Source: Polyangiaceae bacterium (GTDB lineage Bacteria; Myxococcota_A; Polyangia; Polyangiales; Polyangiaceae). From it: 64,000 nucleotides of DNA. Below the pieces are notes generated by a model. That model saw only the letters and a list, made by a program, of their open reading frames with translations. It had not been told where the DNA came from and searched no databases. Shown here one piece after another: positions 13,547-18,040 of this stretch. The stretch lies in assembly GCA_020848455.1 (NCBI GenBank), contig JADLAB010000265.1, positions 1 through 64,000 of the forward strand. Reading direction: 5' to 3'. Position numbers and translations under genes: made by a program. How positions within the stretch are numbered: the stretch's first letter is position 1; each line of letters opens with the position of its first letter.

Positions 13547-14893
13547 CTAGAAGCCCTTCTTCACCAGCTCCTCGATGGTGCGCGTGGACAGACGCCCCTC
13601 GAGGACGTCGGGCTCGCGCAGCAGCGCCTGGTGGAGCGGGATGTTGGTGCGGATGCCGCCGATGATGAACTCGTCGAGCGCGCAGCGCATCTTGGCAAGC
13701 GCCTCCGCCCGGTTCTGCCCGTAGGCGATGACCTTGGCGATGAGCGAGTCGTAGCAGGCCGGCACGCGCCAGCCGCCGTACACGCCGCTGTCGACCCGCA
13801 CGCCGCCGCCGCCCGGCGGGTGGTACTCGGTGATGAGACCGGGCCACGGCGCGAAGGTCTTCGGATCCTCGGCGTTGATCCGGCACTCGATGGCGTGCCC
13901 GCGAAAGCGCCACGGGCGCGTGTCGGGCAGCTGCACCTTCTCGCCGGCGGCGGCGAGCAGCTGCTGCTCGACCAGGTCGACGCCGGTGACCGCCTCGGTG
14001 ACCGGGTGCTCGACCTGGATGCGCGTGTTCATCTCCATGAAGTAGAGCTCGCCGCCCTCATCCATCAGGAACTCGAGCGTGCCGACGGTGGTGTAGCCGG
14101 TCTGGCCGATGGCCACGCGGATGCGCTCGCAGAGGGCGGCGCGCTGCGCGTCGGTGAGGACCGGGCTCGGCGCCTCCTCCATCACCTTCTGGTGGCGGCG
14201 CTGCAGCGAGCACTCGCGCTCGCCCAGCGTCCAGACGCCGCCGTGCGCATCGGCCACCACCTGGAACTCGATGTGACGAGGGCGCTCGATGAAGCGCTCG
14301 AGGTACACGTCGGGGTTCGAGAAGGCCTTCTGTGCCTCGCCCTGCGCGAGGCAGAAGGCCCGCGCGAGCTCGTCCTCGTCACGCACGACCCGCATCCCGC
14401 GCCCACCGCCGCCGCCCGAGGCCTTGAGGATGACGGGGAAGCCCACCTCGCGCGCCCGCGCGATGGCCTCGTCCGCGTCGCGAAGCACGCCGGTGCCCGG
14501 CAAGAGCGGCAGGCCGTGCGAAACGGCGTTCCGGCGGGCGCTCACCTTGTCGCCCCAGGCCCGCATCGCGGCCGGGCTCGGGCCGATGAACGTGAGGTGA
14601 CAGCGCCGGCACACCTCGGCGAAGTGAGCGTTCTCGGAGAGAAAGCCGTAGCCCGGGTGCACGGCGTCGGCGTTGGTCACCTCGGCCGCGGCGATGATCG
14701 CCGGGACGTTGAGGTAGCTCCTCGCGGCCTCGGCCGGCCCCACGCACACCGCCTCGTCGGCGAAGCGCACGTGCAGCGCGCCCGCGTCGACCTGGGAGTG
14801 GATCGCGACCGTCCGGATGCCGAGGGCACGGCAGGTGCGGATGACCCGCATCGCGATCTCGCCGCGATTGGCGATCAACACCTTCTTGAACAT
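13547..14893 (-). CDS. accC: Biotin carboxylase
   Basis: 448 residues, the usual length. The frame is open for 22 codons upstream, but MFKKVLIANRGEIAMRVIR at 14893 is the conserved family start. The enzyme carboxylates biotin on AccB with ATP and bicarbonate. The ATP-grasp fold is clear: HPGYGFLSEN, the glycine-rich lid KASGGGGGRGMRVV, ERPRHIEFQV, LGERECSLQRRHQKV, the metal and bicarbonate site FMEMNTRIQVEHPVTE, and GHAIECRINAEDP. It lies 66 bp after accB in the same operon. The carboxyltransferase subunits AccA and AccD are not in the window. Confidence 0.97.
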   Translation of the reverse strand: MFKKVLIANRGEIAMRVIRTCRALGIRTVAIHSQVDAGALHVRFADEAVCVGPAEAARSYLNVPAIIAAAEVTNADAVHPGYGFLSENAHFAEVCRRCHLTFIGPSPAAMRAWGDKVSARRNAVSHGLPLLPGTGVLRDADEAIARAREVGFPVILKASGGGGGRGMRVVRDEDELARAFCLAQGEAQKAFSNPDVYLERFIERPRHIEFQVVADAHGGVWTLGERECSLQRRHQKVMEEAPSPVLTDAQRAALCERIRVAIGQTGYTTVGTLEFLMDEGGELYFMEMNTRIQVEHPVTEAVTGVDLVEQQLLAAAGEKVQLPDTRPWRFRGHAIECRINAEDPKTFAPWPGLITEYHPPGGGGVRVDSGVYGGWRVPACYDSLIAKVIAYGQNRAEALAKMRCALDEFIIGGIRTNIPLHQALLREPDVLEGRLSTRTIEELVKKGF

Positions 14894-14959
14894 GGCTCGC
14901 TCACGCGACCCCGCGCCCACGCGCTCCCGTCGGGAGCCGCGCTCGGCGACACGGGGCAC

Positions 14960-15415
14960 TCAGCTCTTCTTGATCTTGAACAGCGGCTGCCCGAACTCGA
15001 CCGGCTTGCCGTTCTCGACGAGGATGTCGACGATGCTGCCCGCGAAATCGGCCTCGATCTCGGTCATCAGCTTCATCGCCTCGACGATGCACAGGGTCTG
15101 GCCTTCGCGCACCACGCTGCCGAGCTCCACGAAGGGCGGCGCGTCGGGCGACGGGGCGCGGTAGAACGTGCCGACGAACGGCGACGACACGACGTGGGCG
15201 TCGCCCTCCTTCGCGGCGGCAGGCCCCTCGGGAGCGGCAGCGGCGGGGGCCACCGGCGGCGCGAGCGCCACGAACGGCGCGCCGGTTGCCGCGAGCGGTC
15301 GAGCCCCGCGGCACAGGCGCATGCGCACCTGCTCGTCCTCGAACTCGAACTCCGAGACGTCACCTTCGTCGAGCACACGCAGTAGCGCGCGCAGCTTCTT
15401 GAGATCGATGTCCAT
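14960..15415 (-). CDS. accB: Biotin carboxyl carrier protein
   Basis: 151 residues, starting [26 protein letters not shown], the typical AccB N-terminal helix-strand. An Ala/Pro linker (residues about 50-70) joins it to the C-terminal biotinyl domain, which has the family thumb segment [19 protein letters not shown] and the biotinylation motif EAMKLM with Lys115. It carries carboxylated biotin between AccC and the carboxyltransferase in the first step of fatty acid synthesis. A TAGCGT element lies 13 bp before the start. The Roadblock gene is upstream with a 100-bp gap and accC follows. Confidence 0.97.
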
Positions 15416-15515: not shown

Positions 15516-15875
15516 TCAGGCGAGCTCGCGCGCCATGTCGGCGACGCGGGTGCGGAGCACGAAGCGCGCCTTGCCGAGGTTGCCGCGGGGATCGAGCGAC
15601 AGGGCGACGAAATAGTTCGGCGTCACCATGCGGACGAGCGTGGTGAACTGCTCGGCGACGATGGCCACCTCGTGGGCCTCGCCCGCGTCGAGCATCTTGG
15701 CGGCCGTGCAGATCTGCTTGACCACGATGCTGAGCTCGATGCCGATGTTCTTGATGTCGAACGTCGAATCCGGCTTGGAGTAGCTCTCGAGGGGCACGCC
15801 CTCGAGCTCCATGACGCACGACGCGACCGCCCCCTCGGTCGCGTCCACGACCTCTTTCAGGACTGACTCGAACAT
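15516..15875 (-). CDS. Roadblock/LC7 domain protein
   Basis: 119 residues, a single domain. MFESVLKEVVDATEGAVASCVMELEGVPLESY is the first helix and two strands of the Roadblock fold, and VAEQFTTLVRMVTPNYFVALSLDPRGNLGKARFVLR gives the central helix and last two strands. In bacteria such proteins are partners or GAPs of small Ras-like GTPases (MglB with MglA in Myxococcus). No MglA-like GTPase lies in the window. It is first in the accB-accC-pntAA-meaB direction, and a TAGGCT box sits 6 bp upstream of the ATG. The function here is unknown; the link to the acc genes is positional. Confidence 0.85.
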   Translation of the reverse strand: MFESVLKEVVDATEGAVASCVMELEGVPLESYSKPDSTFDIKNIGIELSIVVKQICTAAKMLDAGEAHEVAIVAEQFTTLVRMVTPNYFVALSLDPRGNLGKARFVLRTRVADMARELA

Positions 15876-16240: not shown

Positions 16241-18040
16241 ATGCGCGCACGAGCCGGGGATCCTCCGCGCACGATGCCCCAGAAGGTGCTGGCCGGACGC
16301 GCCAGCGATCCGCAGCTGAAGGGCGACATCGTCAGGGTCAAGGTCGACCAGGTGATCCTGTCGCGGGCCCCGTCACGGACGCTGGCCGAGGCGCTGGCTG
16401 CCGGGCTGAAGAGGGCCATACCCGAGGTGTCGATCGCCTACGACGGGACGGCCGTCACCACCCGCGCCAACGTGCCGACCGACGGGACGCTGTCGAACGG
16501 GCTGCCGCAGTACGGCGTGCTCGTCGCTCGCCCCGGCATCGGCTTCCCGGCGCCCGTCCACATCGAGCGCTTCGCGGCACCCGCGCGCCTGGCGCTCACC
16601 GACGACCCGCGGCTCGCCCCGGTCGGGGGCGTGGGCATGCTGTGCCTCGTCGTGTCGCCGACCCAGCTCGGTCAGGCGCTCGCGACGGGCAGCGTGTCGC
16701 TGCGGCCACCGCGGAGCATCCAGATCCACCTGTCGGGGCGCACGCGCCCCTTCGTGTGCGCGCGCGACGTCGCGCTCGAGCTGCTCCGGCGCGGCATCCC
16801 GGAGATCGTCCGGCGCATCGAGGCGGAGCACGCCGCGCCCGTCGTGCTGGAGTTCGCAGGGCCGACCGCGCGCATGCTGTCCGTCGGCACGCGCTCGGTC
16901 CTGTGCGGCATCGCGCCCCAGGTCGGGGCGGCCGCGGCCCTGTTCATCAGCGACGACAAGACCGAGGTGTTCCTGCGCGACCAGCGCCGCTCCAAGGCGC
17001 ACCGCGCGCTCCTGCCCGATCCCGGAGCGCCGTGCGAGGAGGTGCTCACCATCGATCTGGCCACGGTCGATCCGCTCGTGATGGACCTCGACGGTCGGGT
17101 CCGCACGGCGCGCGAGCTCACCGGACAGCCGGTGGGACAGGTCGTGCTCGGCGGTGACTCGGGCGTGACCCTGCGCGACATGCTCGCCGCGGCGAGCCTG
17201 CTCAAGAGCAAGCGCATCCCGCCGCGGCTCGACCTGTTGCTCGCGCCACCATCGCGCCAGGTGCTCGAGGTGCTCGGCCAGAGCGGCGCGCTCGTCGACC
17301 TCGTGGCGACGGGCGCACGCATCGTCGAGCCGGACCGGCGCGTCATGACCGGGGAGCTGTACCCGCCGACCGAGGAGGGCCTGTCCATGCGCTGCGCGGA
17401 TCCGGACCCGCGCATGCCCGGCTTCCGGCCGTACCTCGTCGCCTCGGCCGAGACGCTCTCGTACGCGGTCGCGCACGGCATCGTGGGCGACCCGCGCGCC
17501 TTCAAGCGCCCGGCGCGCGTGACGGTGCCGCGCGTGCTGCCGACCGAGGACGTGCTCGTCGTCCGGCAGAAGAACAAGAAGAAGGGCCCCGGCGGCAGTG
17601 TGTTCGTGCCGCCCAAGTCGGCGCCGCTGCCGAGCTGGAAGAACCCGACCACCCTCGAGCTCGCCGTGGGAGTGCCGGTGGAAGCGGTGCTCACCGGCGC
17701 GAAGGAGCTCGCCGTCGTGCTGACCGAGCTCGACGACGTGCGCGCCCTCGGCGACGCCGTCGCGCTGGGCAGCAACGTGCGGGCACTCATCGCGCCCTAC
17801 GTGCCGAGCCAGATGGTCTCGACGCTCGCCGCCGAGGGCGTGGCGTGCTTCGCGGTCGAGCCGAGCGCGCTCGGCGCCTTCAAGGGACAGGGCCAGCTCG
17901 CGCTGCCGAAGATCGGCAGCTGGGGCGACAAGACCCCGGCAGCTGCCGGCAAGAACAAGGTCGAGCTGCGCTGGCTCGCGATCGACCAGGAGCTCGCCTG
18001 GCTGAACGACGGCCGCGCGCGCATCCCCGCGGTCAAGTAG
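16241..18040 (+). CDS. Aconitase-family protein lacking iron-sulphur cluster ligands
   Basis: 599 residues from the ATG at 16241; the ATG at 16274 (MPQKVLAGRAS) looks like a family start and is possible. The order of conserved blocks follows LeuC/aconitase: KVLAGRA at the start, GVGMLCLVVSPTQLGQALATG, RPPRSIQIHLSG, CARDVALELLRRG, then GAAAALFISDDKTEVFL, TIDLATVDPLV, and a C-terminal LVASAETLSYAVAHGIVGDPR plus a swivel-like SNVRALIAPYVP segment. The catalytic parts are lost. The first cluster motif, normally GSCTNG, reads GGDSGV with Asp306 in place of Cys. The CxxC motif is replaced by EPDRRVMTG (363-371), and the Asp-Ser-His site near the N-terminus reads TDDP. It cannot hold the usual 4Fe-4S cluster. 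A binding, regulatory or different catalytic role is inferred. It is followed by the sulfatase-fold gene. Confidence 0.8.
   Translation: MRARAGDPPRTMPQKVLAGRASDPQLKGDIVRVKVDQVILSRAPSRTLAEALAAGLKRAIPEVSIAYDGTAVTTRANVPTDGTLSNGLPQYGVLVARPGIGFPAPVHIERFAAPARLALTDDPRLAPVGGVGMLCLVVSPTQLGQALATGSVSLRPPRSIQIHLSGRTRPFVCARDVALELLRRGIPEIVRRIEAEHAAPVVLEFAGPTARMLSVGTRSVLCGIAPQVGAAAALFISDDKTEVFLRDQRRSKAHRALLPDPGAPCEEVLTIDLATVDPLVMDLDGRVRTARELTGQPVGQVVLGGDSGVTLRDMLAAASLLKSKRIPPRLDLLLAPPSRQVLEVLGQSGALVDLVATGARIVEPDRRVMTGELYPPTEEGLSMRCADPDPRMPGFRPYLVASAETLSYAVAHGIVGDPRAFKRPARVTVPRVLPTEDVLVVRQKNKKKGPGGSVFVPPKSAPLPSWKNPTTLELAVGVPVEAVLTGAKELAVVLTELDDVRALGDAVALGSNVRALIAPYVPSQMVSTLAAEGVACFAVEPSALGAFKGQGQLALPKIGSWGDKTPAAAGKNKVELRWLAIDQELAWLNDGRARIPAVK

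Follow-up and report, generated by a model that had tools for sequence, protein, structure and literature searches.

RNA binding is a second job of aconitase, and a switchable one. In apo-aconitase/IRP1 and in the bacterial RNA-binding aconitases, the protein switches between a holo form that is an enzyme and an apo form that binds RNA, and the cysteines are kept. Apo-AcnA of M. tuberculosis, for example, binds an IRE-like RNA (PMC7527780), and those members of the aconitase superfamily that two other papers characterise carry an Fe-S cluster (PMC8184944, PMC10040528). In the open-access literature, we found no description of a conserved bacterial aconitase family without a cluster. Searches there for Polyangiaceae aconitases that have degenerated, or for aconitase pseudoenzymes in general, gave nothing relevant. 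Here, we focus on such a family, starting from one gene in a window of 64,000 nucleotides from a Polyangiaceae bacterium (contig JADLAB010000265.1, positions 1 to 64,000). A conserved lineage that has genetically lost both cluster and chemistry, with its fold still strongly selected, uncouples the second job from the enzymatic one and provides a clean system for asking what the aconitase fold does without its cluster.

The gene is an uninterrupted open reading frame on the forward strand. Its features, in window coordinates, are as follows.

16241..18040 (stop included), plus strand: cluster-less aconitase-fold protein of 599 aa (Pfam match of 3.8e-26, orthologues, model)
16241..16276, plus strand: N-terminal signature MRARAGDPPRTM, residues 1-12, near-invariant in 50 members and absent from genuine aconitases
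16598..16612, plus strand: T120-D-D-P-R124, replacing the GSDSH motif (alignment)
16973..17005, plus strand: basic loop L245-R-D-Q-R-R-S-K-A-H-R255, (nearly) invariant and poorly modelled
17150..17158, plus strand: G304-G305-D306, replacing GSC, the first of the cluster motifs (49 of 50 members have D here and one has a gap)
17327..17347, plus strand: E363-P-D-R-R-V-M369, replacing CxxC, with E363, P364 and D365 invariant (50/50)
17486..17533, plus strand: basic conserved end of domain 3, G416-D-P-R-A-F-K-R-P-A-R-V-T-V-P-R431
17636..18037, plus strand: LeuD-like swivel domain in degenerate form (residues 466-599), under weak constraint (model against LeuD 2pkp, Z 10.3)

The first-pass annotation took the product for an aconitase-family paralogue with its fold kept, and both profiles and predicted structure agree. 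The protein matches Pfam Aconitase (PF00330) significantly, with an E-value of 3.8e-26 and 92.5 bits (cut-off 28.7), as do all 32 family members scanned, and a Pfam-based annotation would label it an aconitase. The top NCBIfam models are PRK07229 (E 3.4e-52) and TIGR01342. However, a score of 177.9 bits against the 612 required places the protein outside the PRK07229 equivalog (aconitate hydratase), and its TIGR01342 score is likewise far under the cut-off (169 of 719 bits). By sequence alone, it retrieves solved LeuC/HacA-type large subunits and mitochondrial aconitase. An AlphaFold2 model built on the family alignment (mean pLDDT 81.7, pTM 0.87) superposes on 4kp1 over 402 residues of domains 1-3 with a Z of 29.8, and the whole chain (1-599) matches mitochondrial aconitase over 581 residues with a Z of 28, so that the earlier claim of a conserved block order including the swivel-like end is borne out by the model. 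The earlier suggestion of a swivel profile search fared less well: the Pfam scan gave no Aconitase_C match for this end, and it is the predicted model that shows residues 466-599 to be LeuD-like, with a Z of about 10 against LeuD small subunits. The Pfam match, the predicted-model Z of 28-30 and the tree described below make the protein a member of the aconitase superfamily by fold and descent.

In aconitase, some of the catalytic residues come from the swivel domain. Seven members of the family (L104-L110), three of them from one-contig genomes, lack this domain, their sequence stopping at the position of Arg442 or soon beyond it. This absence of a domain that contributes to catalysis fits the loss of aconitase chemistry; together with the weak constraint on the swivel where it is present, it indicates that the kept function resides in domains 1-3. 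A single-sequence model of one naturally short member (L105) reached a pLDDT of 33, too low to inform on its fold.

To read the motifs, we aligned the protein with 13 aconitases of PRK07229 type from its own phylum. GSC has become G304-G305-D306, C421 and C424 (mitochondrial numbering) have become R366 and M369 so that CxxC reads RRVM, and SDSH has become D121-D122-P123-R124; the first-pass readings GGDSGV (Asp306), EPDRRVMTG and TDDP were thus accurate. The equivalents of Q72, D100/H101, H147, N258, E262, N446/R447 and R452 are also replaced, the blocks YVDHN, QDAT, CHQ, NMGAE and RNFxGRSG are absent, and so are the swivel motifs TTDHI and GSSREHA with their SSRE and TTDH residues. Across the 15 catalytic and ligand positions of domains 1-3, counted by the literature numbering of mitochondrial aconitase, 14 are replaced and one is kept, the equivalent of Asp165, which is still acidic (D in 36 and E in 14 of 50). 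This is in contrast to the core positions that are invariant in the 13 relatives, of which the family keeps 35 of 73, including numerous glycines, prolines and acidic residues of structural appearance (Fisher p 3e-4 for 35/73 against 1/15; this figure is rough, since the 15 include a few, the GSC cysteine among them, that vary between the 13 relatives).

None of the 50 distinct orthologues retains any of the three cluster cysteines, and not one of them therefore holds the three-cysteine set of the [4Fe-4S] aconitase, IPMI and homoaconitase enzymes. All 50 share the same degenerate motifs and have no invariant cysteine in common, so that neither an assembly error nor chance accounts for them. 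No cluster ligand and hardly any catalytic residue is left in the family, as had been claimed from the single sequence, and the loss of the old aconitase function is well supported. Judged by these residues, the proteins would bind no Fe-S cluster and catalyse no dehydration of the aconitase type.

The first-pass annotation had also argued against a pseudogene, and about 100 orthologues and the selection on them bear this out. In a search of 377 genomes of the phylum, close orthologues were confined to Polyangiaceae and one further family of the order (f6). By the counts of a 32-row profile search, they occur in 94 of 108 Polyangiaceae genomes and in five genomes of f6. Among good-quality Polyangiaceae genomes, 54 of 61 have the gene and seven lack it, and it is therefore not essential throughout the lineage. 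There is a single copy per genome, although in G071, G276 and G411 the gene appears split in two. Pairwise dN/dS for the core (residues 1-442) is 0.01-0.18 in 15 pairs, while the C-terminal part (443 on) gives 0.09-0.43. The core is under purifying selection and the gene is retained as a single copy across Polyangiaceae, which are soil myxobacteria; from this strong conservation, we infer that the family has acquired a different job. As a side observation, one orthologue found as two matches (L052, G071:C237:34738-36435, gap near residues 281-306) is a single open frame of 575 residues, and the gap looks like a local deletion or an error.

In a maximum-likelihood tree, the cluster-less family is monophyletic (100/100), and the branch leading to it measures 2.1 changes per site. 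It is placed among the PRK07229 aconitases with a support of 80/78, which is modest given the long branch, and the ancestor was most likely a PRK07229-type aconitase. The PRK07229/TIGR01342 aconitases, single chains with the arrangement 1-2-3-linker-4, share the domain order of the family and are its nearest profiles. The cluster-less proteins differ from them in lacking the cluster ligands and nearly all catalytic residues, and in having a basic core, an optional swivel and an N-terminal signature of their own. A PRK07229 aconitase above the model cut-off is found in two of 59 Polyangiaceae genomes. The window's own genome also encodes further superfamily proteins, two of which show GSC, CxxC and DSH, and an AcnA that shows DSH, so that aconitase activity need not depend on the cluster-less gene. 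The best explanation for the 599-aa protein is a neofunctionalised aconitase paralogue that was fixed for another task in Polyangiaceae. Two f6 sequences nest inside the Polyangiaceae clade, in a weakly resolved part, and have a different gene neighbourhood; their origin could be horizontal, by transfer.

What this task might be is suggested by the residues that are new. The alignment holds 56 family-specific invariant core positions, including 12 Arg and 2 Lys, and the end of domain 3 has the family-wide form GDPRxFKRPxRVTVPR. The calculated pI of the core is 7.7-9.7 in eight members, compared to 5.3-5.8 in five genuine relatives, two of which (L040 and L041) come from genomes of f6, the other family with the cluster-less gene. 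Residues 239-254 are one of the parts with low model confidence, yet 245-255 ranks with the best-conserved segments of these proteins; a loop that is invariant and yet poorly modelled could be expected to become ordered upon binding a partner. At the N-terminus, the codons of R4, G6, P9 and R10 are highly conserved and the others are near expectation, which puts codon conservation only mildly above that of the rest of the gene and the constraint mainly at the protein level. A DNA-level element at this site was considered and rejected on these grounds, and the genome has no further copy of the N-terminal peptide MRARAGDPPRTM.

Our preferred reading, to which we give a probability of roughly 0.45, is that this aconitase-fold protein, having no cluster, has ceased to be an isomerase and that its cleft has been rebuilt to hold an anionic partner, for instance RNA or a small acid. 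In this scenario, an ancestor gave up its [4Fe-4S] ligands along with the acid-base residues, after which the protein became fixed in Polyangiaceae for a new task. Its former active-site cleft, which now carries new conserved Arg and Asp/Glu, would bind the anionic partner together with the basic loop 245-255, and this partner may be RNA in the first place or else a small anionic metabolite. RNA is the leading candidate because apo-aconitases bind RNA, the core is basic and the invariant basic loop is poorly modelled; basic composition alone is no proof of nucleic-acid binding. The protein would thus be a binding or regulatory protein resembling apo-aconitase/IRP1 but locked in the cluster-free state. 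As proposed, it would resemble apo-aconitase/IRP1 and M. tuberculosis AcnA (PMC7527780) in having an aconitase fold that is free of a cluster and takes up an anionic partner at the open cleft or close to it. Unlike in IRP1-like proteins, the cysteines are permanently gone and RNA binding is putative. The profiles, predicted structure, about 100 orthologues and dN/dS also support the more general first-pass proposal of a retained non-isomerase role, and the candidate roles that it named, RNA or metabolite binding or a new reaction, would agree with these data. A narrower version, in which Polyangiaceae have a dedicated and permanently cluster-free regulator that binds RNA or a metabolite full-time and is possibly tied to the adjacent cell-polarity gene mglC, is tentative and rather doubtful.

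The main rival to the binding of an anionic partner is a new enzyme without an Fe-S cluster, in which the carboxylates D121, D122/E122, D306, E363 and D365 would hold a divalent metal or act in acid-base catalysis and the new arginines would bind a carboxylated or phosphorylated substrate. D121, D306, E363 and D365, conserved acidic residues close to where the cluster used to be, would also suit a metal-dependent enzyme. A cluster cysteine has given way to D306 in 49 of 50 members, with a gap in the remaining one, the invariant E363-P364-D365 immediately precedes the lost CxxC, and R42 and R124 occupy old active-site positions with R46 next to them. Moreover, the chemistry of the superfamily has changed before, as the cluster and substrate sites of aconitase X differ (PMC8184944). 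On the other hand, the swivel, a contributor to the active site in aconitase, is absent in seven members, and no metabolic gene cluster suggests a substrate. Such an enzyme is possible, but we would not expect it.

A second alternative comes from the gene neighbourhood, which contains the following genes.

15516..15875, minus strand: divergent neighbour, a Roadblock/LC7 protein homologous to the motility polarity protein MglC of Myxococcus xanthus (profile match)
14960..15415, minus strand: AccB-like biotin carboxyl carrier protein of the mglC-(aroQ)-accB-accC cluster (Biotin_lipoyl 3.3e-21)
13547..14959, minus strand: AccC-like biotin carboxylase (Biotin_carb_N 3.5e-46 and other domains)

A profile of six Roadblock neighbours matches M. 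xanthus MglC (PDB 7ct3) at 1.4e-32, and Robl_LC7 was found in five of six of the neighbour's orthologues. The mglC gene is divergently adjacent to the cluster-less gene in all 39 Polyangiaceae loci inspected; in one locus (L119), the called frame overlaps the Roadblock/LC7 gene. Beyond mglC there are usually aroQ, accB and accC, and the genes downstream of the cluster-less gene differ between lineages. In the window's lineage, aroQ was not found in the mglC cluster. An Rfam RNA was considered and rejected, as no Rfam family matched at the locus. The adjacency to mglC is real and kept within Polyangiaceae, but by itself it assigns no function.

This neighbourhood would suit a structural or scaffold protein that uses its rigid three-domain fold as a platform for a protein partner, for example the MglC homologue, with a cleft that holds no ligand. 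In favour of this, mglC stays beside the gene even at loci with no accB or accC found close by (L064, L070), in contrast to the varying downstream genes, and the swivel is optional. However, mglC with aroQ, and mostly with accB-accC, is an older cluster that other families have without the cluster-less gene, and it therefore points to no pathway; mglC also occurs in a Polyangiaceae genome that lacks the cluster-less gene, and the f6 orthologues are not beside it. New conserved charged residues at old active-site positions favour an active cleft instead, and a pure scaffold seems unlikely. The f6 orthologues (L073, L074, L116 and L117) follow a gene for a glutaredoxin-like-domain protein, preceded in three of the four loci by an ABC-F ATPase, and in three of four they face pyrB-tsf (neighbour names assigned by eye from sequence).

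The least probable explanations by far are an Fe-S hydro-lyase with unusual ligands, for which one could invoke the partly different ligands of aconitase X (PMC8184944, PMC10040528) and the two to six cysteines that the core retains, four of which are common in the family, and a decaying pseudogene; no cysteine is invariant, these four being present in 47, 42, 39 and 31 of 50 members and all four together in 22, and the core dN/dS of 0.01-0.18 excludes decay in nearly all pairs tested. Aconitase X is also a superfamily branch with a rebuilt active site and gives a partial fold match (Z about 12). However, it keeps a cysteine-bound cluster and dehydratase activity (PMC8184944), its domain order differs and no sequence relation was seen beyond the superfamily. 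With no invariant cysteine in the family and no AcnX among the Pfam and NCBIfam matches of the 599-aa protein, we do not place it in aconitase X.

A separate variant was seen among the PRK07229-type aconitases of another family of the phylum, f25. In three of these proteins (L046, L047 and L050), GSCTNS is replaced by GSSANP and CxxC is kept, and in the two shown in full (L046 and L047) TTDHI reads TTDEI. From its sequence, this two-cysteine variant may be functionally different.
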